Source of the DNA: Morinoia aosen
Taxonomy: Eukaryota > Arthropoda > Malacostraca > Amphipoda > Talitridae
Direction: 5' to 3'
Assembly (NCBI GenBank): GCA_030386875.1
Contig: CM059558.1
Coordinates: 14,302,928 to 14,366,927 of the forward strand
DNA: 64,000 nucleotides
The notes under the pieces were generated by a model. The model was not told the origin of the DNA. It worked only from the letters and a program-made list of their open reading frames with translations, and ran no database searches. Shown piece by piece: positions 17,853-51,300 of the stretch (positions within the stretch are counted from its first letter, which is position 1; every line of letters begins with the position of its first letter). Made by a program: the position numbers and the translations under genes.

Positions 17853-18304
17853 GTGCATGAAATAGGTACCCCTCTGGCACAAACATACACGGGTATGTTT
17901 GTGATTTACCCATGTATTTACATGTTGTAATAAATCACATGTACGTGATTTATTACAATTTACATACATGCGTTTTTGTGTGATTATTAGGGCTGTAAAG
18001 CTATGATTAGAGCATATTTTCACAACCCTAGTTATCAGACACTTGAATCGTCAATACTATTCACTGAAATGCCAAGTGTCTCCTCAAATGTTTGAAAAAA
18101 TAAACAAATAAATAAACAAATAAAAAAATAATTAGATAAAAAAATCAATAAATTGAAATTTTTTGAGCGTAACTTCATCTAGTTATTACGTTGGGAATCT
18201 CAGAGAACACATTACATCGGTTGGTGCGCGTGTCTGTGGCGCTCACCAGGTGCTCAATGACCGTATCTGTGATACGAGTTTCACCAGTGCACAAGTACAA
18301 GAAT
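17853..18304. other. AT-rich spacer with hairpins
   Basis: Contains the inverted repeat at 17925-17958 and a smaller one, CATACACGGGTATG, near 17886. Farther right is an A-rich stretch with AAATAAACAAATA direct repeats (about 18100-18130). The last 20 bp before the 61-bp array (GCACAAGTACAAGAATATTT) resemble a decayed array unit. Confidence 0.7.
17925..17958. other. Perfect inverted repeat (14-bp stem, 6-nt loop)
   Basis: The left arm TTGTAATAAATCAC (17925-17938) is the exact reverse complement of GTGATTTATTACAA (17945-17958); the loop is ATGTAC. It lies about 70 bp beyond the end of the 51-bp array. Function unknown; it could be a hairpin-forming transposon end or a chance AT-rich dyad, although 14 perfect pairs with GC positions is unlikely by chance. 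Confidence 0.9.
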
Positions 18305-21300
18305 ATTTTAATGGCGGGTACTGTTGGGATGGATATATTTGTTGGGCATCCACGTCTGCAAGATTTGTTTAATGGCGGGTACTGTTGGGATGGATATATT
18401 TGTTGGGCATCCACGTCTGCAAGATTTGTTTATTGGCGGGTACTGTTGGGGTGGATATATTTGTTGGGCATCCACGTCTGCAAGATTTGTTTATTGGCGG
18501 GTACTGTTGGGGTGGATATATTTGTTGGGCATCCACGTCTGCAAGATTTGTTTATTGGCGGGTACTGTTGGGGTGGATATATTTGTTGGGCATCCACGTC
18601 TGCAAGATTTGTTTATTGGCGGGTACTGTTGGGGTGGATATATTTGTTGGGCATCCACGTCTGCAAGATTTATTTAATGGCGGGTACTGTTGGGATGGAT
18701 ATATTTGTTGGGCATCCACGTCTGCAAGATTTGTTTATTGGCGGGTACTGTTGGGATGGATATATTTGTTGGGCATCCACGTCTGCAAGATTTATTTAAT
18801 GGCGGGTACTGTTGGGATGGATATATTTGTTGGGCATCCACGTCTGCAAGATTTGTTTATTGGCGGGTACTGTTGGGATGGATATATTTGTTGGGCATCC
18901 ACGTCTGCAAGATTTGTTTATTGGCGGGTACTGTTGGGGTGGATATATTTGTTGGGCATCCACGTCTGCAAGATTTATTTAATGGCGGGTACTGTTGGGA
19001 TGGATATATTTGTTGGGCATCCACGTCTGCAAGATTTATTTAATGGCGGGTACTGTTGGGATGGATATATTTGTTGGGCATCCACGTCTGCAAGATTTAT
19101 TTAATGGCGGGTACTGTTGGGGTGGATATATTTGTTGGGCATCCACGTCTGCAAGATTTGTTTATTGGCGGGTACTGTTGGGGTGGATATATTTGTTGGG
19201 CATCCACGTCTGCAAGATTTATTTAATGGCGGGTACTGTTGGGATGGATATATTTGTTGGGCATCCACGTCTGCAAGATTTGTTTATTGGCGGGTACTGT
19301 TGGGGTGGATATATTTGTTGGGCATCCACGTCTGCAAGATTTGTTTAATGGCGGGTACTGTTGGGATGGATATATTTGTTGGGCATCCACGTCTGCAAGA
19401 TTTATTTAATGGCGGGTACTGTTGGGATGGATATATTTGTTGGGCATCCACGTCTGCAAGATTTATTTAATGGCGGGTACTGTTGGGATGGATATATTTG
19501 TTGGGCATCCACGTCTGCAATATTTATTTAATGGCGGGTACTGTTGGGATGGATATATTTGTTGGGCATCCATGTCTGCAAGATTTATTTAATGGCGGGT
19601 ACTGTTGGGATGGATATATTTGTTGGGCATCCACGTCTGCAAGATTTATTTAATGGCGGGTACTGTTGGGATGGATATATTTGTTGGGCATCCACGTCTG
19701 CAAGATTTATTTAATGGCGGGTACTGTTGGGATGGATATATTTGTTGGGCATCCACGTCTGCAAGATTTATTTAATGGCGGGTACTGTTGGGATGGATAT
19801 ATTTGTTGGGCATCCACGTCTGCAAGATTTATTTAATGGCGGGTACTGTTGGGATGGATATATTTGTTGGGCATCCACGTCTGCAAGATTTATTTAATGG
19901 CGGGTACTGTTGGGATGGATATATTTGTTGGGCATCCACGTCTGCAAGATTTATTTAATGGCGGGTACTGTTGGGATGGATATATTTGTTGGGCATCCAC
20001 GTCTGCAAGATTTATTTAATGGCGGGTACTGTTGGGATGGATATATTTGTTGGGCATCCACGTCTGCAATATTTATTTAATGGCGGGTACTGTTGGGATG
20101 GATATATTTGTTGGGCATCCTCGTCTGCAAGATTTATTTAATGGCGGGTACTGTTGGGATGGATATATTTGTTGGGCATCCACGTCTGCAAGATTTATTT
20201 AATGGCGGGTACTGTTGGGATGGATATATTTGTTGGGCATCCACGTCTGCAAGATTTATTTAATGGCGGGTACTGTTGGGATGGATATATTTGTTGGGCA
20301 TCCACGTCTGCAAGATTTATTTAATGGCGGGTACTGTTGGGATGGATACTCGTATATTTGTTGGGCATCCACGTCTGCAAGATTTTTTTAATGGCGGGTA
20401 CGGTTGGGATGGATATATTTGTTGGGCATCCACGTCTGCAAGATTTATTTAATGGCGGGTACTGTTGGGATGGATATATTTGTTGGGCATCCACGTCTGC
20501 AAGATTTATTTAATGGCGGGTACTGTTGGGATGGATATATTTGTTGGGCATCCACGTCTGCAAGATTTATTTAATGGCGGGTACTGTTGGGATGGATATA
20601 TTTGTTGGGCATCCACGTCTGCAAGATTTATTTAATGGCGGGTACTGTTGGGATGGATATATTTGTTGGGCATCCACGTCTGCAAGATTTATTTAATGAC
20701 TTGTACTGTTGGGATGGACATATTTGTTGGGCATCCACGTCTGCAAGATTTATTTAATGGCGGGTACTGTTGGGATGGATATATTTGTTGGGCATCCACG
20801 TCTGCAAGATTTATTTAATGGCGGGTACTGTTGGGATGGATATATTTGTTGGGCATCCACGTCTGCAAGATTTATTTAATGGCGGGTACTGTTGGGATGG
20901 ATATATTTGTTGGGCATCCACGTCTGCAAGATTTGTTTATTGGCGGGTACTGTTGGGGTGGATATATTTGTTGGGCATCCACGTCTGCAAGATTTGTTTA
21001 ATGGCGGGTACTGTTGGGATGGATATATTTGTTGGGCATCCACGTCTGCAAGATTTATTTAATGGCGGGTACTGTTGGGATGGATATATTTGTTGGGCAT
21101 CCACGTCTGCAAGATTTATTTAATGGCGGGTACTGTTGGGATGGATATATTTGTTGGGCATCCACGTCTGCAATATTTATTTAATGGCGGGTACTGTTGG
21201 GATGGATATATTTGTTGGGCATCCACGTCTGCAAGATTTATTTAATGGCGGGTACTGTTGGGATGGATATATTTGTTGGGCATCCACGTCTGCAAGATTT

Positions 21301-24300
21301 ATTTAATGGCGGGTACTGTTGGGATGGATATATTTGTTGGGCATCCACGTCTGCAAGATTTATTTAATGGCGGGTACTGTTGGGATGGATATATTTGTTG
21401 GGCATCCACGTCTGCAAGATTTATTTAATGGCGGGTACTGTTGGGATGGATATATTTGTTGGGCATCCACGTCTGCAAGATTTTTTTAATGGCGGGTACG
21501 GTTGGGATGGATATATTTGTTGGGCATCCACGTCTGCAAGTTTTATTTAATGGCGGGTACTGTTGGGATGGATATATTTGTTGGGCATCCACGTCTGCAA
21601 GATTTATTTAATGGCGGGTACTGTTGGGATGGATATATTTGTTGGGCATCCACGTCTGCAAGATTTATTTAATGGCGGGTACTGTTGGGATGGATATATT
21701 TGTTGGGCATCCACGTCTGCAAGATTTATTTAATGGCGGGTACTGTTGGGATGGATATATTTGTTGGGCATCCACGTCTGCAAGATTTATTTAATGACTT
21801 GTACTGTTGGGATGGATATATTTGTTGGGCATCCACGTCTGCAAGATTTATTTAATGGCGGGTACTGTTGGGATGGATATATTTGTTGGGCATCCACGTC
21901 TGCAAGATTTATTTAATGGCGGGTACTGTTGGGATGGATATATTTGTTGGGCATCCACGTCTGCAAGATTTGTTTAATGGCGGGTACGGTTGGGATGGAT
22001 ATATTTGTTGGGCATCCACGTCTGCAAGATTTATTTAATGGCGGGTACTGTTGGGATGGATATATTTGTTGGGCATCCACGTCTGCAAGATTTATTTAAT
22101 GGCGGGTACTGTTGGGATGGATATATTTGTTGGGCATCCACGTCTGCAAGATTTATTTAATGGCGGGTACTGTTGGGATGGATATATTTGTTGGGCATCC
22201 ACGTCTGCAATATTTATTTAATGGCGGGTACTGTTGGGATGGATATATTTGTTGGGCATCCACGTCTGCAAGATTTATTTAATGACTTGTACTGTTGGGA
22301 TGGATATATTTGTTGGGCATCCACGTCTGCAAGATTTATTCAATGGCGGGTACTGTTGGCATGGATATATTTGTTGGGCATCCACGTCTGCAAGATTTGT
22401 TTAATGGCGGTTACTGTTGGGATGGATATATTTGTTGGGCATCCACGTCTGCAAGATTTATTTAATGGCAGGTACTGTTGGGATGGATATATTTGTTGGG
22501 CATCCACGTCTGCAAGATTTATTTAATGGCGGGTACTGTTGGGATGGATATATTTGTTGGGCATCCACGTCTGCAAGATTTATTTAATGGCGGGTACTGT
22601 TGGGATGGATATATTTGTTGGGCATCCACGTCTGCAAGATTTATTTAATGGCGGGTACTGTTGGGATGGATATATTTGTTGGGCATCCACGTCTGCAAGA
22701 TTTATTTAATGGCGGGTACTGTTGGGATGGATATATTTGTTGGGCATCCACGTCTGCAAGATTTATTTAATGGCGGGTACTGTTGGGATGGATATATTTG
22801 TTGGGCATCCACGTCTGCAAGATTTATTTAATGGCGGGTACTGTTGGGATGGATATATTTGTTGGGCATCCACGTCTGCAAGATTTCTTTAATGACTTGT
22901 ACTGTTGGGATGGATATATTTGTTGGGCATCCACGTCTGCAAGATTTATTCAATGGCGGGTACTGTTGGGATGGATATATTTGTTGGGCATCCACGTCTG
23001 CAAGATTTGTTTAATGGCGGGTACTGTTGGGATGGATATATTTGTTGGGCATCCACGTCTGCAAGTTTTATTTAATGGCGGGTACTGTTGGGATGGATAT
23101 ATTTGTTGTGCATCCACGTGTGCAAGATTTATTTAATGGCGGGTACTGTTGGGATTGATATAGTTGTTGGGCATCCACGTGTGCAAGATTTATTTAATGG
23201 CGGGTACTGTTGGGATGGATATAGTTGTTGGGCATCCACGTGTGCAAGATTTATTTAATGGCGGGTACTGTTGGGATGGATATAGTTGTTGGGCATCCAC
23301 GTGTGCAAGATTTATTTAATGGCGGGTACTGTTGGGATGGATATAGTTGTTGGGCATCCACGTCTGCAAGATTTATTTAATGGCGGGTACTGTTGGGATG
23401 GATATAGTTGTTGGGCATCCACGTGTGCAAGATTTATTTAATGGCGGGTACTGTTGGGATGGATATAGTTGTTGGGCATCCACGTGTGCAAGATTTATTT
23501 AATGGCGGGTACTGTTGGGATGGATATAGTTGTTGGGCATCCACGTGTGCAAGATTTATTTAATGGCGGGTACTGTTGGGATGGATATATTTGTTGGGCA
23601 TCCACGTCTGCAAGATTTATTTAATGGCGGGTACTGTTGGGATGGATATATTTGTTGGGCATCCACGTCTGCAAGATTTATTTAATGGCGGGTACTGTTG
23701 GGATGGATATATTTGTTGGGCATCCACGTCTGCAAGATTTATTTAATGGCGGGTACTGTTGGGATGGATATATTTGTTGGGCATCCACGTCTGCAAGATT
23801 TCTTTAATGACTTGTACTGTTGGGATGGATATATTTGTTGGGCATCCACGTCTGCAAGATTTATTCAATGGCGGGTACTGTTGGGATGGATATATTTGTT
23901 GGGCATCCACGTCTGCAAGATTTGTTTAATGGCGGGTACTGTTGGGATGGATATATTTGTTGGGCATCCACGTCTGCAAGTTTTATTTAATGGCGGGTAC
24001 TGTTGGGATGGATATATTTGTTGGGCATCCACGTGTGCAAGATTTATTTAATGGCGGGTACTGTTGGGATGGATATAGTTGTTGGGCATCCACGTGTGCA
24101 AGATTTATTTAATGGCGGGTACTGTTGGGATGGATATAGTTGTTGGGCATCCACGTGTGCAAGATTTATTTAATGGCGGGTACTGTTGGGATGGATATAG
24201 TTGTTGGGCATCCACGTGTGCAAGATTTATTTAATGGCGGGTACTGTTGGGATGGATATATTTGTTGGGCATCCACGTCTGCAAGATTTATTTAATGGCG

Positions 24301-26915
24301 GGTACTGTTGGGATGGATATAGTTGTTGGGCATCCACGTGTGCAAGATTTATTTAATGGCGGGTACTGTTGGGATGGATATATTTGTTGGGCATCCACGT
24401 CTGCAAGATTTATTTAATGGCGGGTACTGTTGGGATGGATATAGTTGTTGGGCATCCACGTGTACAAGATTTATTTAATGGCGGGTACTGTTGGGATGGA
24501 TATAGTTGTTGGGCATCCACGTCTGCAAGATTTATTTAATGGCGGGTACTGTTGGGATGGATATAGTTGTTGGGCATCCACGTGTGCAAGATTTATTTAA
24601 TGGCGGGTACTGTTGGGATGGATATAGTTGTTGGGCATCCACGTGTGCAAGATTTATTTAATGGCGGGTACTGTTGGGATGGATATAGTTGTTGGGCATC
24701 CACGTGTGCAAGATTTATTTAATGGCGGGTACTGTTGGGATGGATATATTTGTTGGGCATCCACGTCTGCAAGATTTATTTAATGGCGGGTACTGTTGGG
24801 ATGGATATATTTGTTGGGCATCCACGTCTGCAAGATTTATTTAATGGCGGGTACTGTTGGGATGGATATATTTGTTGGGCATCCACGTCTGCAAGATTTA
24901 TTTAATGGCGGGTACTGTTGGGATGGATATATTTGTTGGGCATCCACGTCTGCAAGATTTCTTTAATGACTTGTACTGTTGGGATGGATATATTTGTTGG
25001 GCATCCACGTCTGCAAGATTTATTCAATGGCGGGTACTGTTGGGATGGATATATTTGTTGGGCATCCACGTCTGCAAGATTTGTTTAATGGCGGGTACTG
25101 TTGGGATGGATATATTTGTTGGGCATCCACGTCTGCAAGTTTTATTTAATGGCGGGTACTGTTGGGATGGATATATTTGTTGGGCATCCACGTGTGCAAG
25201 ATTTATTTAATGGCGGGTACTGTTGGGATGGATATAGTTGTTGGGCATCCACGTGTGCAAGATTTATTTCATGGCGGGTACTGTTGGGATGGATATAGTT
25301 GTTGGGCATCCACGTGTGCAAGATTTATTTAATGGCGGGTACTGTTGGGATGGATATAGTTGTTGGGCATCCACGTGTGCAAGATTTATTTAATGGCGGG
25401 TACTGTTGGGATGGATATAGTTGTTGGGCATCCACGTCTGCAAGATTTATTTAATGGCGGGTACTGTTGGGATGGATATAGTTGTTGGGCATCCACGTGT
25501 GCAAGATTTATTTAATGGCGGGTACTGTTGGGATGGATATAGTTGTTGGGCATCCACGTGTGCAAGATTTATTTAATGGCGGGTACTGTTGGGATGGATA
25601 TAGTTGTTGGGCATCCACGTGTGCAAGATTTATTTAATGGCGGGTACTGTTGGGATGGATATATTTGTTGGGCATCCACGTCTGCAAGATTTATTTAATG
25701 GCGGGTACTGTTGGGATGGATATATTTGTTGGGCATCCACGTCTGCAAGATTTATTTATTGGCGGGTGCTGTTGGGATGGATATATTTGTTGGGCATCCA
25801 CGTCTGCAAGATTTATTTAATGGCGGGTACTGTTGGGATGGATATATTTGTTGGGCATCCACGTCTGCAAGATTTCTTTAATGACTTGTACTGTTGGGAT
25901 GGATATATTTGTTGGGCATCCACGTCTGCAAGATTTATTCAATGGCGGGTACTGTTGGGATGGATATATTTGTTGGGCATCCACGTCTGCAAGATTTGTT
26001 TAATGGCGGGTACTGTTGGGATGGATATATTTGTTGGGCATCCACGTCTGCAAGTTTTATTTAATGGCGGGTACTGTTGGGATGGATATATTTGTTGGGC
26101 ATCCACGTGTGCAAGATTTATTTAATGGCGGGTACTGTTGGGATGGATATAGTTGTTGGGCATCCACGTGTGCAAGATTTATTTAATGGCGGGTACTGTT
26201 GGGATGGATATAGTTGTTGGGCATCCACGTGTGCAAGATTTATTTAATGGCGGGTACTGTTGGGATGGATATAGTTGTTGGGCATCCACGTGTGCAAGAT
26301 TTATTTAATGGCGGGTACTGTTGGGATGGATATATTTGTTGGGCATCCACGTCTGCAAGATTTATTTAATGGCGGGTACTGTTGGGATGGATATAGTTGT
26401 TGGGCATCCACGTGTGCAAGATTTATTTAATGGCGGGTACTGTTGGGATGGATATAGTTGTTGGGCATCCACGTCTGCAAGATTTATTTAATGGCGGGTA
26501 CTGTTGGGATGGATATAGTTGTTGGGCATCCACGTGTGCAAGATTTATTTAATGGCGGGTACTGTTGGGATGGATATAGTTGTTGGGCATCCACGTGTGC
26601 AAGATTTATTTAATGGCGGGTACTGTTGGGATGGATATAGTTGTTGGGCATCCACGTGTGCAAGATTTATTTAATGGCGGGTACTGTTGGGATGGATATA
26701 TTTGTTGGGCATCCACGTCTGCAAGATTTATTTAATGGCGGGTACTGTTGGGATGGATATATTTGTTGGGCATCCACGTCTGCAAGATTTATTTAATGGC
26801 GGGTACTGTTGGGATGGATATATTTGTTGGGCATCCACGTCTGCAAGATTTATTTAATGGCGGGTACTGTTGGGATGGATATATTTGTTGGGCATCCACG
26901 TCTGCAAGATTTGTT
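18305..26915. repeat. 61-bp satellite array, about 141 copies
   Basis: The unit runs ATGGCGGGTACTGTTGGGAT, GGATATATTTGTTGGGC, ATCCACGTCTGCAAG, ATTTATTTA. Variant positions define subfamilies: TTTATTGGC and GGGGTGGATA near 18400-19350; TATAGTTG with CGTGTGCAAG from about 23150; AATGACTTG single units at 20695, 21793, 22281, 22891, 23806, 24965 and 25880. One copy near 20345 carries a 6-bp insertion (CTCGTA). The array has nested higher-order structure (see findings). Plus-strand frames of 117-239 codons near the left end occur because units with TTTATTGG lose the TAA of TTTAATGG. No matching exon or domain evidence. Confidence 0.98.
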
Positions 26916-26940
26916 TGGGCAAATATCCAATCACGTCATT
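26916..26940. other. Junction between 61-bp and 20-bp arrays
   Basis: About 25 bp of non-repeat sequence (GGGCAAATATCCAATCACG) joins the two arrays. Confidence 0.6.
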
Positions 26941-39477: not shown

Positions 39478-41380
39478 TACCATCACTACCACCAACCCCA
39501 CACCAGTACCATCACTACCACCAACCCCACACCAGTACCATCACTACCACCAACCCCACACCAGTACCATCACTACCACCAACCCCACACCAGTACCATC
39601 ACTACCACCAACCCCACACCAGTACCATCACTACCACCAACCCCACACCAGTATCATCACTACCACCAACCCCACACCAGTACCATCGCTACCACCAACC
39701 CCACACCAGTACCATCACTACCACCAACCCCACACCAGTACCATCGCTACCACCAACCCCACACCAGTACCATCACTACCACCAACCCCACACCAGTATC
39801 ATCACTACCACCAACCCCACACCAGTACCATCGCTACCACCAACCCCACACCAGTACCATCACTACCACCAACCCCACACCAGTACCATCGCTACCACCA
39901 ACCCCACACCAGTACCATCACTACCACCAACCCCACACCAGTACCATCACTACCACCAACCCCACACCAGTACCATCACTACCCCCAACCCCACACCAGT
40001 ACCATCACTACCACCAACCCCACACCAGTATCGTCGCTAACACCAACCCCACACCACACCAGTACCATCACTACCACCAACCCCACACCAGTATCATCGC
40101 TACCCCCAACCCCACACCAGTACCATCACTACCACCAATCCCACACCAGTATCATCGCTAACACCAACCCCACACCACACCAGTACCATCACTACCACCA
40201 ACCCCACACCAGTATCATCGCTACCTCCAACCCCACACCAGTACCATCACTACCCCCAACCCCACACCAGTACCATCACTACCATCAACCCCACACCAGT
40301 ATCATCGCTAACACCAACCCCACACCACACCAGTACCATCACTACCACCAACCCCACACCAGTACCATCGCTACCACCAACCCCACACCAGTACCATCAC
40401 TACCACCAACCCCACACCAGTATCATCACTACCACCAACCCCACACCAGCACCATCACTACCACCAACCCCACACCAGTACCATCACTACCACCAACCCC
40501 ACACCAGTACCATCACTACCACCAACCCCACACCAGTACCATCACTACCACCAACCCCACACCAGTACCATCACTACCACCAACCCCACACCAGTACCAT
40601 CACTACCACCAACCCCACACCAGTACCATCACTACCCCCAACCCCACACCAGTACCATCACTACCACCAACCCCACACCAGTATCGTCGCTAACACCAAC
40701 CCCACACCACACCAGTACCATCACTACCACCAACCCCACACCAGTATCATCGCTACCCCCAACCCCACACCAGTACCATCACTACCACCAACCCCACACC
40801 AGTATCATCGCTAACACCAACCCCACACCACACCAGTACCATCACTACCACCAACCCCACACCAGTACCATCGCTACCCCCAACCCCACACCAGTATCAT
40901 CGCTACCCCCAACCCCACACCAGTACCATCACTACCACCAACCCCACACCAGTATCATCGCTACCCCCAACCCCACACCAGTACCATCACTACCACCAAC
41001 CCCACACCAGTATCATCGCTAACACCAACCCCACACCACACCAGTACCATCACTACCACCAACCCCACACCAGTACCATCACTACCACCAACCCCACACC
41101 AGTACCATCACTACCACCAACCCCACACCAGTATCATCGCTAACACCAACCCCACACCACACCAGTACCATCACTACCACCAACCCCACACCAGTACCAT
41201 CACTACCACCAACCCCACACCAGTACCATCACTACCACCAACCCCACACCAGTATCATCGCTAACACCAACCCCACACCACACCAGTACCATCACTACCA
41301 CCAACCCCACACCAGTATCATCGCTAACACCAACCCCACACCACACCAGTACCATCACTACCACCAACCCCACACCAGTA
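39478..41380. repeat. 29-bp minisatellite array, left part
   Basis: Units of ACCATCACTACCACCAACCC plus CACACCAGT. Variants include ATCATCGCTA, CTACCCCCAACC and a longer form with TCGCTAACACC and a doubled ACACC (about 34 bp). The array is broken by the insertion at 41381 and resumes at 42612. Frames up to 412 codons (39455-40693) are repeat translations. Confidence 0.97.
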
Positions 41381-41391
41381 CCCAATTGAAA
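41381..41391 (+). repeat. Left terminal inverted repeat of the insertion
   Basis: CCCAATTGAAA, immediately after the TA at 41379-41380. It is the exact reverse complement of the right end at 42601-42611. Confidence 0.92.
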
Positions 41392-41403
41392 ATTATCGCC
41401 CTT

Positions 41404-41450
41404 TTCAGGTAGTAATTTAGTCGTAAAAGGTCGAAAACGGCCCAAAAGGG
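41404..41450 (+). repeat. Left subterminal motif of the insertion
   Basis: TTCAGGTAGTAA is followed about 22 bp later by GGCCCAAAAGGGCC, a near-palindrome. The same pair of motifs recurs in the right-hand 42-bp repeats, so this looks like one copy of the subterminal unit. Confidence 0.75.
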
Positions 41451-41706
41451 CCAAAAATCACGACTTCAAACCGACTCCTACCTATACTTGGCCTATTAGG
41501 GCTTGAAAAGGGCTCTTCATTCAGCTGGCCTTTTATAGGTCTAGTCAATGGCTGTTTGCGGGCTCATTCGGGTCGTTTAAAGTCGTTTTCAAGCCTTTTC
41601 GACGACCTCTATTTGGACGCGTAATAGATTGTAAAAAGACTCGTAATCGTAAATGTTGTACAAGTCGTATTACTTCAGTAAATGTAAAGAACTAAATGAA
41701 TTTCAA

Positions 41707-41740
41707 CTAACCTAACTTAGTTAAGTTAGATTAGGTAAGT
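41707..41740. other. Imperfect dyad inside the insertion
   Basis: CTAACCTAACTTAG is followed by TTAAGTTAGATTAGG, an imperfect inverted repeat. It superficially resembles TTAGG but has no tandem TTAGG run. Confidence 0.6.
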
Positions 41741-42084
41741 TTCGTTAAACATCTTCAACAATACTATAAATAATTAATCCAGTCAACATGAAAACTAGGA
41801 TAGAAAAGCTAACTGCTGAGCATAACATCAAATTGGCACTTTATTAATGCATTATATAAAATAAATATGAATGATAGCTTATAACTGTTGGAACACTTGG
41901 GTTGTCGAACGCTGAGCATTCAACTTGTAGTGCTTTACCCTAGTTACCCCTCAAACCTCGATTCTAGTCCTTCTATGTTCAGTAATCTTAATACATCCCA
42001 ATGTAAATTTATTTCAGAAAAAGTTTCCACTTCTCCGCCGCTTATCATCGATACCTACAGCCGGAGAAGTATAAACCTAAGTCC

Positions 42085-42128
42085 GCTGCTTCACTCGCCT
42101 CAAATCGGAACTCACTAGGCGAAGCAGC
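42085..42128. other. Bulged inverted repeat inside the insertion
   Basis: GCTGCTTC-ACTC-GCCT (42085-42100) pairs with AGGCGAAGCAGC (42117-42128), leaving a 4-nt bulge and a 16-nt loop. Confidence 0.8.
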
Positions 42129-42225
42129 CACAAGACCCGGCCTTACAAACTCTTTATATCGTATAAAAAATCTGATGTTGGAGCTCTTTGAGGTCGTTGC
42201 ATGGCCCTCTATAAGTCGTACGGAA

Positions 42226-42460
42226 GCCTAATAAGGCCGGTATTAGCCTTGATCAAGCAGTAAGGAAGCCCAAAAGGGCCGGTATTAGCCTTGATCAAGC
42301 AGTAAGGAAGCCCAAAAGGGCCGGTATTAGCCTTGATCAAGCAGTAAGGAAGCCCAAAAAAGGCCAGGACGAGACTCGTTCAAGCAATGGAAAAGCCAAA
42401 AATAGTCGTGAATAGCCTCGTTCAGGTAGTAGAGAAGCCCAAAATGGCCGTTGCATTAGC
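42226..42460 (+). repeat. 42-bp subterminal tandem repeats of the insertion
   Basis: GCCCAAAAGGGCC (or a variant) starts at 42226, 42268, 42310 and 42352, exactly 42 bp apart, each followed by GGTATTAGCCTTGATCAAGC and AGTAAGGAA. The period continues with decay to 42379 (TTCAAGCAATGG) and 42421 (TTCAGGTAGTAG). Inverted copies of the motif lie at about 42533 (TTACTGCTTGAA) and 42567 (AACTGCCTGAAA). Such arrays often bind the transposase in known families; here that is inference. Confidence 0.85.
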
Positions 42461-42600
42461 CGTTTCGATGCCCAGAAATAGCCGTTTAAAAGGGCTTAAA
42501 ATAAGTAGACATTTGCTCCGAAAAAGGCTAATTTACTGCTTGAAAACGACTAAACTCTCGGCTTATAACTGCCTGAAAACGATCTGTAAAAGGCTCAGAA

Positions 42601-42611
42601 TTTCAATTGGG
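42601..42611 (-). repeat. Right terminal inverted repeat of the insertion
   Basis: TTTCAATTGGG, immediately before the TA at 42612-42613. It pairs exactly with the left end. Confidence 0.92.
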
Positions 42612-45600
42612 TATCATCGCTACCTCCAACCCCACACCAGTACCATCACTACCACCAACCCCACACCAGTACCATCACTACCACCAACCCCACACCAGTA
42701 CCATCACTACCACCAACCCCACACCAGTATCATCGCTAACACCAACCTCACACCACACCAGTACCATCACTACCACCAACCCCACACCAGTATCATCGCT
42801 ACCCCCAACCCCGCACCAGTACCATCACTACCACCAACCCCACACCAGTACCATCACTACCACCAACCCCACACCAGTATCATCACTACCACCAACCCCA
42901 CACCAGTACCATCACTACCACCAACCCCACACCAGTATCATCGCTAACACCAACCTCACACCACACCAGTACCATCACTACCACCAACCCCACACCAGTA
43001 TCATCGCTACCCCCAACCCCGCACCAGTACCATCACTACCCCCAACCCCACACCAGTACCATCACTACCACCAACCCCACACCAGTATCATCGCTAACAC
43101 CAACCTCACACCACACCAGTACCATCACTACCACCAACCCCACACCAGTATCATCGCTACCCCCAACCCCGCACCAGTACCATCACTACCACCAACCCCA
43201 CACCAGTACCATCACTACCACCAACCCCACACCAGTATCATCACTACCACCAACCCCACACCAGTACCATCACTACCACCAACCCCACACCAGTACTGTC
43301 ACTACCACCAACCCCACACCAGTACCATCGCTACCACCAACCCCACACCAGTACCATCACTACCACCAACCCCACACCAGTATCATCACTACCACTAACC
43401 CCACGCCAGTACCATCACTACCACCAACCCCACACCAGTACCATCACTACCACCAACCCCACTCCAGTACCATCACTACCACCAACCCCACACCAGTACC
43501 ATCACTACCACCAACCCCACACCAGTACCATCGCTACCACCAACCCCACACCAGTACCATCACTACCACCAACCCCACACCAGTATCATCACTACCACCA
43601 ACCCCACACCAGTACCATCACTACCACCAACCCCACACCAGTACCATCACTACCCCCAACCCCACACCAGTACCATCACTACCATCAACCCCACACCAGT
43701 ATCATCGCTAACACCAATCCCACACCACACCAGTACCATCACTACCACCAACCCCACACCAGTATCATCGCTACCTCCAACCCCACACCAGTACCATCAC
43801 TACCACCAACCCCACACCAGTATCATCGCTAACACCAACCCCACACCACACCAGTACCATCACTACCACCAACCCCACACCACACCAGTACCATCACTAC
43901 CACCAACCCCACACCAGTACCATCACTACCACCAACCCCACACCAGTACCATCACTACCACCAACCCAACACCAGTACCATCACTACCACCAACCCCACA
44001 CCAGTATCATCACTACCACAAACCCCACACCAGTACCATCACTACCACCAACCCCACACCAGTATCATCACTACCACCAACCCCACACCAGTACCATCAC
44101 TACCACCAACCCCACACCAGTACTGTCACTACCACCAACCCCACACCAGTACCATCGCTACCACCAACCCCACACCAGTACCATCACTACCACCAACCCC
44201 ACACCAGTATCATCACTACCACTAACCCCACGCCAGTACCATCACTACCACCAACCCCACACCAGTACCATCACTACCACCAACCCCACTCCAGTACCAT
44301 CACTACCACCAACCCCACACCAGTACCATCACTACCACCAACCCCACACCAGTACCATCGCTACCACCAACCCCACACCAGTACCATCACTACCACCAAC
44401 CCCACACCAGTATCATCACTACCACCAACCCCACACCAGTACCATCACTACCACCAACCCCACACCAGTACCATCACTACCCCCAACCCCACACCAGTAC
44501 CATCACTACCATCAACCCCACACCAGTAGCATCGCTAACACCAATCCCACACCACACCAGTACCATCACTACCACCAACCCCACACCAGTATCATCGCTA
44601 CCTCCAACCCCACACCAGTACCATCACTACCACCAACCCCACACCAGTATCATCGCTAACACCAACCCCACACCACACCAGTACCATCACTACCACCAAC
44701 CCCACACCACACCAGTACCATCACTACCACCAACCCCACACCAGTACCATCACTACCACCAACCCCACACCAGTACCATCACTACCACCAACCCAACACC
44801 AGTACCATCACTACCACCAACCCCACACCAGTATCATCACTACCACAAACCCCACACCAGTACAATCACTACCACCAACCCCACACCAGTACCATCACTA
44901 CCACCAACCCCACACCAGTACCATCACTACCACCAACCCCACACCAGTATCGTCGCTAACACCAACCCCACACCACACCACACCAGTACCATCACTACCA
45001 CCAACCCCACACCAGTATCATCGCTACCCCCAACCCCACACCAGTACCATCACTACCACCAACCCCACACCAGTATCATCGCTAACACCAACCCCACACC
45101 ACACCAGTACCATCACTACCACCAACCCCACACCAGTATCATCGCTACCTCCAACCCCACACCAGTACCATCACTACCCCCAACCCCACACCAGTACCAT
45201 CACTACCACCAACCCCACACCAGTATCATTGCTAACACCAACCCCACACCACACCAGTACCATCACTACCACCAACCCCACACCAGTATCATCGCTACCC
45301 CCAACCCCGCACCAGTACCATCACTACCACCAACCCCACACCAGTACCATCACTACCACCAACCCCACACCAGTATCATCACTACCACCAACCCCACACC
45401 AGTACCATCACTACCACCAACCCCACACCAGTACCATCACTACCACCAACCCCACACCAGTACCATCGCTACCACCAACCCCACACCAGTACCATCACTA
45501 CCACCAACCCCACACCAGTACCATCACTACCACCAACCCCACACCAGTATCATCACTACCACCAACCCCACTCCAGCACCATCACTACCACCAACCCCAC

Positions 45601-48335
45601 ACCAGTACCATCACTACCACCAACCCCACACCAGTACCATCACTACCACCAACCCCACACCAGTACCATCGCTACCACCAACCCCACACCAGTACCATCA
45701 CTACCACCAACCCCACACCAGTATCATCACTACCACCAACCCCACACCAGTACCATCACTACCACCAACCCCACACCAGTACCATCACTACCACCAACCC
45801 CACACCAGTACCATCACTGCCACCAACCCCACACCAGTACCATCACTACCACCAACCCCACACCAGTACCATCGCTACCACCAACCCCACACCAGTACCA
45901 TCACTACCACCAACCCCACACCAGTATCATCACTACCACCAACCCCACACCAGTACCATCACTACCACCAACCCCACACCAGTACCATCACTACCCCCAA
46001 CCCCACACCAGTACCATCACTACCATCAACCCCACACCAGTATCATCGCTAACACCAACCCCACACCACACCAGTACCATCACTACCACCAACCCCACAC
46101 CAGTATCATCGCTACCCCCAACCCCACACCAGTACCATCACTACCACCAACCCCACACCAGTATCATCGCTAACACCAACCCCACACCACACCAGTACCA
46201 TCACTACCACCAGCCCCACACCACACCAGTACCATCACTACCACCAACCCCACACCAGTACCATCACTACCACCAACCCCACACCAGTACCATCACTACC
46301 ACCAACCCAACACCAGTACCATCACTACCACCAACCCCACACCAGTATCATCACTACCACCAACCCCACACCAGTACAATCACTACCACCAACCCCACAC
46401 CAGTACCATCACTACCACCAACCCCACACCAGTACCATCACTACCACCAACTCCACACCAGTACCATCACTACCCCCAACCCCACACCAGTACCATCACT
46501 ACCACCAACCCCACACCAGTATCATCGCTACCACCAACCCCACACCAGTACCATCACTATCACCAACCCCACACCAGTACCATCGCTACCACCAACCCCA
46601 CACCAGTACCATCGCTACCACCAACCCCACACCAGTATCATCGCTACCACCAACCCCACACCAGTACCATCGCTACCACCAACCCCACACCAGTACCATC
46701 ACTACCCCCAGCCCCACACCAGTACCATCACTACCACCAACCCCACACCAGTATCATCACTACCACCAACCCCACACCAGTACCATCACTACCACCAACC
46801 CCACACCAGTACCATCACTACCCCCAACCCCACACCAGTACCATCACTACCATCAACCCCACACCAGTATCATCGCTAACACCAACCCCACACCACACCA
46901 GTACCATCACTACCACCAACCCCACACCAGTATCATCGCTACCCCCAACCCCACACCAGTACCATCACTACCACCAACCCCACACCAGTATCATCGCTAA
47001 CACCAACCCCACACCACACCAGTACCATCACTACCACCAACCCCACACCACACCAGTACCATCACTACCACCAACCCCACACCAGTACCATCACTACCAC
47101 CAACCCCACACCAGTACCATCACTACCACCAACCCAACACCAGTACCATCACTACCACCAACCCCACACCAGTATCATCACTACCACCAACCCCACACCA
47201 GTACAATCACTACCACCAACCCCACACCAGTACCATCACTACCACCAACCCCACACCAGTACCATCACTACCACCAACCCCACACCAGTACCATCACTAC
47301 CCCCAACCCCACACCAGTACCATCACTACCACCAACCCCACACCAGTACCATCGCTACCACCAACCCCACACCAGTACCATCGCTACCACCAACCCCACA
47401 CCAGTACCATCACTACCACCAACCCCACACCAGTACCATCGCTACCACCAACCACACACCAGTACCATCACTACCCCCAACCCCACACCAGTACCATCGC
47501 TACCACCAACCCCACACCAGTATCATCGCTACCACCAACCCCACACCAGTACCATCGCTACCACCAACCCCACACCAGTACCCTCGCTACCACCAACCCC
47601 ACACCAGTATCATCGCTACCACCAACCCCACACCAGTACCATCGCTACCACCAACCCCACACCAGTACCATCGCTACCACCAACCCCACACCAGTATCAT
47701 CGCTACCACCAACCCCACACCAGTATCATCGCTACCACCAACCCCACACCAGTACCATCGCTACCACCAACCCCACACCAGTATCATCGCTACCACCACC
47801 CCCACACCAGTACCATCACTACCACCAACCCCACACCAGTACCATCGCTACCACCAACCCCACACCAGTACCATCACTACCACCAACCCCACACCAGTAC
47901 CATCGCTACCACCAACCCCACACCAGTACCATCGCTACCACCAACCCCACACCAGTACCATCGCTACCACCAACCCCACACCAGTACCATCGCTACCACC
48001 AACCCCACACCAGTACCATCACTACCCCCAGCCCCACACCAGTACCATCACTACCACCAACCCCACACCAGTATCATCACTACCACCAACCCCACACCAG
48101 TACCATCACTACCACCAACCCCACACCAGTACCATCACTACCACCAACCCCACACCAGTACCATCACTACCACCAACCCCACGCCAGTACCATCACTACC
48201 CCCAGCCCCACACCAGTACCATCACTACCACCAACCCCACACCAGTACCATCACTACCACCAACCCCACACCAGTACCATCACTACCACCAACCCCACAC
48301 CAGTACCATCACTACCACCAACCTCACACCACACC
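42612..48335. repeat. 29-bp minisatellite array, right part
   Basis: Same unit family as 39478-41380. Markers GTACTGTC (43293, 44120), CCACGCC (43401, 44228), CAATCCC (43715, 44542) and CCAACCCAAC (43961, 44788) show an 827-bp direct duplication. The same 827-bp offset recurs at 46302/47129 and 46374/47201. From about 46500 ATCGCTACC units dominate. Frames up to 314 codons are repeat translations. Confidence 0.97.
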
Positions 48336-51300
48336 AGTACCACACCAGCACCACACCAGTACCACACCAGTACCACACCAGCACCACACCAGCACCACAC
48401 CAGCACCACACCAGTACCACACCAGCACCACACCAGTACCACACCAGTACCACACCAGCACCACACCAGCACCACACCAGCACCACACCAGCACCACACC
48501 AGCACCACACCAGTACCACACCAGCACCACACCAGCACCACACCAGCACCACACCAGCACCACACCAGCACCACACCAGCTCCACACCAGCACCACACCA
48601 GTACCACACCAGTACCACACCAGCACCACACCAGCACCACACCAGCACCACACCAGCACCACACCAGCACCACACCAGCAGCACACCAGCACCATACCAG
48701 TACCACACCAGCACCACACCAGCACCACACCAGCACCACACCAGAACCACACCAGCACCACACCAGCACCACACCAGCACCACACCTGCACCACACCAGC
48801 ACCACACCAGCACCACACCAGCACCACACCAGTACCACACCAGCACCACACCAGCACCACACCAGCACCACACCAGCACCACACCAGCACCACACCAGCA
48901 CCACACCAGCACCACACCAGCACCACACCAGCACCACACCAGCACCACACCAGCACCACACCAGTACCACACCAGCACCACACCAGCACCACACCAGCAC
49001 CACACCAGCACCACACCAGTAACACACCAGCACCACACCAGCACCACACCAGCACCACATCAGCACCACACCAGCACCACACCAGCACCACACCAGTACC
49101 ACACCAGCACCACACCAGCACCACACCAGCACCACACCACCACCACACCAGCACCACACCAGCACCACACCAGCACCACACCAGTAACACACCAGCACCA
49201 CACCAGTACCACACCAGCACCACACCAGCACAACACCAGCACCATACCAGTACCACACCAGCACCATACCAGTACCACACCAGCACCACACCAGCACCAC
49301 ACCAGCACCACACCAGCACCACACCAGTACCACACCAGCACCACACCAGCACCACACCAGCACCACACCAGCACCACACCAGCACCACACCAGCACCACA
49401 CCAGCACCACACCAGCACCACACCAGCACCACACCAGCACCACACCAGCACCACACCAGTACCACACCAGCACCACACCAGCAACACACCAGCACCACAC
49501 CAGCACCACACCGGCACCACACCAGTAACACACCAGCACCACACCAGCACCACACCAGCACCACACCAGCACCACACCAGCACCACACCAGCACCACACC
49601 AGTACCACACCAGCATCACACCAGCACCACACCAGCACCACACCAGCACCACACCAGCACCACACCAGCACCACACCAGCACCACACCAGCACCACACCA
49701 GTAACACACCAGCACCACTCCAGTACCACACCAGCACCACACCAGCACCACACCAGCACCACACCAGCACCACACCAGCACCACACCAGCACCACACCAG
49801 CACCACACCAGTACCACACCAGCACCACACCAGCATCACACCAGCACCACACCAGCACCACATCAGCACCACACCAGCACCACACCAGCACCACACCAGC
49901 ACCACACCAGCACCACACCAGTACTACACCAGCACCACACCAGCACCACACCAGCACCACACCAGCACCACACCAGCACCACACCAGCACCACACCAGCA
50001 CCACACCAGCACCACACCAGCACCACACAAGTACCACACCAGCACCACACCAGCACCACACCAGCACCACACCAGCACCACACCAGTACCACACCAGCAC
50101 CACACCAGCACCACACCAGCACCACACCAGCACCACACCAGTACTACACCAGCACCACACCAGCACCACACCAGTACTACACCAGCACCACACCAGCACC
50201 ACACCAGCACCACACCAGCACCACACCAGCACCACACCAGCACCACACCAGCACCACACCAGCACCACACAAGTACCACACCAGCACCACACCAGCACCA
50301 CACCAGCACCACACCAGCACCACACCAGTACCACACCAGCACCACACCAGCACCACACCAGCACCACACCAGCACCACACCAGTACTACACCAGCACCAC
50401 ACCAGCACCACACCAGTACCACACCAGCACCACACCAGCACCACACCAGCACCACACCAGCACCACACCAGCACCACACCAGTACCACACCAGCACCACA
50501 CCAGCACCACACCAGCACCACACCAGCACCACACCAGCACCACACCTGCACCACACCAGCACCACACCAGCACCACACCAGTACCACACCAGCACCACAC
50601 CAGCACCACACCAGCACCACACCAGCACCACACCAGCACCACACCAGCACCACACCAGCACCACACCAGCACCACACCAGCACCACACCAGCACCACACC
50701 AGCACCACACCAGCACCACACCAGCACCACACCAGCACCACACCAGCACCACACCAGCACCACACCAGCACCACACCAGCACCACACCAGTACCACACCA
50801 GCACCACACCAGCACCACACCAGCACCACACCAGCACCACACCAGTACTACACCAGCACCACACCAGCACCACACCAGTACCACACCAGCACCACACCAG
50901 TACTACACCAGCACCACACCAGCACCACACCAGTACCACACCAGCACCACACCAGCACCACACCAGCACCACACCAGCACCACACCAGCACCACACCAGC
51001 ACCACACCAGTACCACACCAGCACCACACCAGCACCACACCAGCACCACACCAGCACCACACCAGTACTACACCAGCACCACACCAGCACCACACCAGCA
51101 CCACACCAGCACCACACCAGTACCACACCAGTACCACACCAGCACCACACCAGTACCACACCAGCACCACACCAGCACCACACCAGTACCACACCAGTAC
51201 CACACCAGTACCACACCAGTACCACACCAGTACCACACCAGTACCACACCAGTACCACACCAGTACCACACCAGTACCACACCAGCACCACACCAGTACC

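Follow-up and report, generated by a model that had tools for sequence, protein, structure and literature searches.

A recently amplified 1.23-kb transposon family in the amphipod Morinoia aosen, probably non-autonomous and of the animal TRC (CACTA/EnSpm) type

In a 64,000-nucleotide stretch of the Morinoia aosen genome (GenBank assembly GCA_030386875.1, contig CM059558.1, positions 14,302,928 to 14,366,927 of the forward strand; hereafter the window, whose own numbering is used below), a 1,231-bp transposon, oriented as the window (41381–42611, + strand), interrupts an array of a 29-bp satellite. The element is probably a non-autonomous cut-and-paste transposon of the animal TRC type, within the CACTA/EnSpm superfamily, that is mobilised in trans. 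We place it there because its CCC ends and its 2-bp target site duplications of free sequence match the published TRC signature, and weak matches to the Transposase_21 domain in intact 873-amino-acid (aa) frames are counted as further support. On this placement, the family is a further member of the known animal TRC/CACTA kind. An earlier reading of the window, made from the sequence only, had described a transposon-like element of a family that it did not recognise; the transposon-like nature held, but the family can be placed.

The host array extends from 39478 to 51191, with a period of 29 according to Tandem Repeats Finder. Comparison of the element ends revealed perfect 11-bp terminal inverted repeats, CCCAATTGAAA (left, 41381–41391, + strand; right, 42601–42611, − strand), flanked by the 2 copies of the TA duplication (41379–41380 and 42612–42613). 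When the element and one TA were removed, the 29-bp unit TATCATCGCTACCTCCAACCCCACACCAG was rebuilt with consensus units on either side. Of 250 units inspected in the array after rejoining, 5 have this sequence, namely the rebuilt unit and 4 others. The block, its ends, and its flanks had thus been read correctly to the base by the sequence-only reading, and the clean insertion that it proposed into a pre-existing array is borne out by a unit seen elsewhere in that array.

Other copies of the element, hundreds of them nearly identical, are present in the genome, which comprises 29 contigs totalling 1.99 Gb. A similarity search, with the best candidates scored, located near-full-length copies of 98–100% identity in at least 40 places, the window included. 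Seven other copies that were fetched have identical start and end bases and lengths of 1,228–1,234 bp, and their boundaries do not differ from those in the window. The left-end 18-mer has 731 exact matches, a count that takes in the longer relatives described below, compared with 1 for its reversed control; the right-end 18-mer has 648, compared with 0 for the reversed pattern. Because so many copies share these ends, the block is real and not a product of chance. The copies are spread over many contigs, and a satellite-specific element was rejected. The 18 copies analysed of the 1.23-kb class differ from their consensus by only 0.24–1.22% (pairwise mean 1.5%); therefore, the family was amplified recently. 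Both ends are shared by further recurrent length classes of 427, approximately 1,145, 1,187, and 1,341 bp, and by one copy of 805 bp, which has a duplicate. Some copies form pairs with matching flanks on one contig, C1 (loci L046/L047 and L049/L050; also C1:23805130-23810191 and C1:24056318-24061377 of G000, for which only 4 flanking bases per side were seen). These same-flank pairs, 0.2–2.3 Mb apart, point to segmental or assembly duplication.

Among 58 distinct two-ended copies left after de-duplication, the 2 flanking bases were shared in 53, and 3 or more in 1; the duplicated dinucleotides were AA, TT, TA, AG, CA, AT, GA, TG, CT, and AC. The earliest copies fetched were flanked by CA, AT, AA, and TC. 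Thirty of the fetched loci had been picked because TA precedes them, which makes them a biased set. In the sample of 34 copies that was not TA-selected, 32 had a 2-bp duplication, composed of TA (7), TT (7), AA (6), AG (3), CA (2), AT (2), GA (2), TG (1), CT (1), and AC (1). TA is thus one among many possible targets of the family. The sequence-only reading had taken TA to be the target and had itself named flanking duplications other than TA as evidence to the contrary; such duplications are what we found, and this part of it falls.

The duplications were backed by paralogous empty sites. The joined flanks of 8 copies were compared with paralogous matches within the fetched sequence, allowing at most 3 substitutions in 26 bases. 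For 7 of the 8, the form with the 2 bp present once (TA in 3, AT in 2, AG and AA in 1 each) was matched by 1 to 201 places; in these 7, the form with both 2-bp copies had no match, and the form with none was matched once (L054). The eighth copy, L077, is of low complexity and matches all three forms. The joined flanks of L045, L054, and L003 match 85, 29, and 15 places, respectively, with at least 1 in the same locus, which suggests that these copies, too, lie within repeated units. A slight preference was seen in the flanks of the 53 duplications, in a TA-enriched set with 20 positions tested: C directly before the duplication in 25 (p ~3e-5), G directly after it in 23 (p ~1e-4), and A four bases before it in 31 (p 2e-5).

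These features were compared with those of described systems. The available passages of the TRC study (PMC1636069) give inverted repeats starting with CCC, 2-bp duplications, and a Transposase_21 domain for animal TRC elements of Schistosoma, Tribolium, and Aedes; the duplication was present in 7 of 14 S. mansoni copies, and the ends and lengths are CCCTAGTAGC... and 5.2 kb in T. castaneum and CCCAGTCAAC and 9.2 kb in A. aegypti. As described there, SmTRC1 is similar to our element in (i) its CCC inverted ends, (ii) its 2-bp duplications backed by paralogous empty sites, and (iii) its tandem-repeat region and shorter truncated copies, but is longer (approximately 4.5 kb), has an inverted repeat of 54 bp rather than 11 bp, and contains a Transposase_21 open reading frame (ORF), whereas no ORF is recognisable here. 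A repeated motif near the ends or a tandem repeat, which is reported for SmTRC1 without defining TRC elements, is also found in our element. Spongebob of Hydra (EnSpm-4N1_HM; CCCAGCCAAC... with 2-bp duplications) was, in the passages available, assigned to CACTA/EnSpm on the same grounds (PMC4298943); it resembles our element in its CCCA.. ends (CCCAGCCAACATTGAC) and 2-bp duplications, but differs in its terminal sequence after CCCA and its 5,836-bp consensus. By contrast, the plant CACTA (En/Spm) elements, as characterised in part of PMC1636069, have a CACTA core in their ends, and our element, which ends in CCCAATTG, has neither CACTA nor CAC termini. According to the accessible text of PMC12730594, the wider clade has duplications of 2–5 bp and ends that are mostly CA..TG, and fungal EnSpm elements differ from ours in their CAC ends and 3-bp duplications. 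The CMC-group miniature inverted-repeat transposable elements (MITEs) of viral genomes, as far as the passages of PMC6004678 describe them, are likewise non-autonomous, CACTA-type, and flanked by 2-bp duplications, but have CAC..GTG rather than CCC..GGG ends. The family was not found in the published literature searched, a comparison outside which the Repbase entries lie, and the papers listed for its 11-mer end are, by title, on unrelated subjects.

The absence of a transposase, also noted from the sequence only, holds for the frames of the 1,231-bp element: the longest stop-to-stop frame is 88 aa, compared with a mean of 87 in 200 shuffles, and a Pfam search of all six frames at E 1 found nothing. 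A 21-base motif close to TTTTCAAGCAGTAATTTAGCC, located by motif search, lies near both ends, as TTTTCAGGTAGTAATTTAGTC on the left (41402–41422, + strand) and TTTTCAAGCAGTAAATTAGCC on the right (42526–42546, − strand), and recurs in degenerate form in an internal 42-bp tandem repeat of 3.4 copies (42218–42359, + strand). It has 5 hits at no more than 5 mismatches, compared with 0.03 on average over 100 shuffles, a contrast that is inflated because the element itself supplied the motif and the 42-bp tandem repeat accounts for 3 of the 5 hits. AAAAGGGC (6 vs 0.1) and GCCCAAAA (5 vs 0.06) are also enriched, partly through the same tandem repeat. The repeated subterminal motifs may represent clusters of transposase-binding sites. 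Clusters of subterminal repeats and non-autonomous deletion derivatives are features of plant CACTA (En/Spm) elements too, which however duplicate 3 bp, compared with 2 bp here.

Two groups of longer relatives share the terminus of the short elements. Loci L069 and L075 contain 10-kb stretches that start from the same left end and are approximately 87–94% alike through nested insertions; we designate this family LONG. Among 40 candidates scored, at least 11 places besides L069 match a whole 2.3-kb probe at 93–98%. The sequence common to LONG reaches 8.0 kb from the left end, beyond which L069 carries a different high-copy repeat. The 1,231-bp and 1,341-bp elements both align piecewise and collinearly with LONG, but the gaps between the aligned pieces are not the same, which suggests different internal deletions in the two, and the short classes would then be internally deleted forms of longer elements. 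Within the part of LONG that was read, no match was found to the right 400–500 bp of either element. A different repeat, nested in the LONG copy of L069 (L069:1-1906), occurs in at least 28 places at 96–97% over the stretch. In the second group, the F5 family (approximately 5.05 kb), the first 13 bases are common with the short element, after which the sequences diverge. Its inverted repeats are perfect over at least 26 bp, and its end 26-mer has 554 exact matches. Among 100 places listed, 12 inverted pairs lie less than 12 kb apart, and 7 of these span 5,051–5,128 bp; one F5 unit is C3:34911323-34916374. Flank matches of 2 bp were seen at four F5 sites (3–4 bases fetched), namely GA, AA, AA, and GA; the two GA sites, which have the same flanks, are probably duplicates, and the two AA sites may be so too. 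A left–right end pair 8.3 kb apart lies at C2:30259814-30268098. The CCCAATTGAAAAV ends are near chance (327 vs 232 for the reversed control), and the CCCAATTGAAAA ends number 3,751, compared with 297.

Two other long candidates were rejected. In the 5,040-bp left–right pair on contig C3, considered as a possible autonomous element, 2.2 kb of the middle starts in a frame like that of a long interspersed nuclear element (LINE) and continues as a simple repeat; its 245-aa frame, itself without a Pfam match, aligns at 70% with the terminal part of an L072 LINE ORF. In L073 (6,358 bp), a LINE with endonuclease and reverse transcriptase domains is nested in a short element.

The sequence-only reading had proposed a search for a longer copy with a DDE transposase, and LONG and F5 do share the terminus. 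Several observations weigh against the TRC placement. A profile search of the genome for Transposase_21 (PF02992) at E 0.001 gave no match, in a search without a positive control (0 of 14 control genomes matched), so that absence is not demonstrated. At E 10, there were 33 matches, none above the Pfam cut-off, with a best E of 0.0105. No transposase was tied to the CCCAATTGAAA ends. Compared by eye, none of the 5 Transposase_21 matches within the stretch covered by the F5 list falls in a listed F5 pair, and none lies beside a listed exact left end where the lists overlap. Translation of 8.0 kb of L069 in six frames yielded no Pfam match at E 0.1, on which the LONG loci L069 and L075 were rejected as autonomous candidates; the LONG size of at least 8.0 kb was read in one copy, in which the right end was not reached. 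In addition, 2-bp flank matches were absent in 2 of the 34 unselected copies and 5 of the 58 overall, and the TRC ends of Tribolium and Aedes given in the passages of PMC1636069 resemble those of our element no further than the first three or four bases. The published motif [LVI]Dx[LM]Hx3LG was absent from all sequences fetched up to that stage. Ten of the 33 Transposase_21 matches lie in stop-free 873-aa frames, one of them at C2:30310061 (9 at E 0.0105–0.0117 and 1 at 0.25), and 17 cover positions 18–108 (E 1.7–3.5, frames of 147–1,015 aa). Such weak matches recur in many long intact frames, which have the look of genuine transposase families, a status not established by the E-values.

The strongest alternative is an unrecognised or undescribed cut-and-paste superfamily that likewise combines CCC..GGG ends with a 2-bp stagger of free sequence, the transposase of which would be encoded in the F5 family. 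It draws on the 13 shared bases, the flank matches GA, AA, and AA, the perfect ends of at least 26 bp with their 554 exact 26-mers, the recurrent 5,051–5,128-bp units among the places listed, and the absence of any Transposase_21 match from the listed F5 pairs. F5 is, however, known from its ends alone and may be non-coding, and since transposases of the animal TRC kind may match Transposase_21 weakly, a miss by that profile says little; we consider this alternative unlikely. More broadly, the short elements, LONG, and F5, with their common 13-bp terminus, might owe their mobility to a transposase not recognised by Pfam, from a deep undescribed lineage of the CACTA-Mirage-Chapaev clade or from outside it, again with this pairing of CCC..GGG ends and a freely chosen 2-bp stagger, which we hold to be rather doubtful.

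Two alternatives founded on specific target sites fare much worse. A PHIS element of the ISL2EU group would agree with the duplication length of 2 bp, but ISL2EU duplicates AT within an A|AT|T target, according to the available part of PMC4482050, and AT makes up only 2 of the 32 unselected duplications; with the duplicated dinucleotide so varied, this assignment is very improbable and was rejected. A Tc1/mariner-type MITE inserting at TA, suggested by the TA flanks of the window copy and of about one-fifth of copies (TA plus the 20-mer, 148 places genome-wide, vs 731 for the 18-mer) and by TA in 7 of the 32 unselected duplications, is scarcely tenable and was rejected as a rule, because most of those duplications are of other dinucleotides and the empty sites include AT, AG, and AA. 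The TA flank of a single copy is thus no evidence for Tc1/mariner, a trap that the wider sample corrected.

For the preferred TRC placement, we infer a CACTA-type transposase and a cut-and-paste route. A transposase encoded elsewhere in the genome would bind at the CCC termini and at the copies of the subterminal motif, excise the element, and join it to a cut with a 2-bp stagger and little preference for sequence, and gap repair after joining would generate the 2-bp duplication; in the window, the TA within a single 29-bp satellite unit would have served as the target. To our knowledge, animal TRC/CACTA elements have been little studied compared with plant CACTA, and the present family, which is young, abundant, and sharply bounded and has many sister copies, makes their excision and end recognition testable. 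Insertions within tandem arrays also carry built-in empty-site controls and tag single array units for following array turnover.

The window (1–64000) consists mostly of side-by-side tandem arrays with periods of 32, 11, 13, 19, 61, 20, 23, 22, 29, 8, and others, and had no Rfam match at the gathering threshold. The 61-bp satellite (18307–26916) begins inside a dispersed repeat: 18251–18366 is approximately 80–85% identical to parts of L005, L006, L024, L069, and L075, and the array looks like an expansion from part of an interspersed repeat. Beside the element copy in L006, a 316-aa frame (L006:3284-4231, − strand) has Tc1/mariner-type HTH_Tnp_Tc3_2 and DDE_3 matches (E ~1e-6, just under the Pfam cut-offs). 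A 153-aa frame at L070:3979-4437 has a DDE_Tnp_4 domain (E 2e-13), which we take to be of the Harbinger type. The 115-aa frame at L075:52-399, for which Pfam gave no match, is reminiscent of a Penelope-type GIY-YIG endonuclease. TTAGG-type repeats, which point to an arthropod host, number 18,973 in the genome, compared with 86 for the control.

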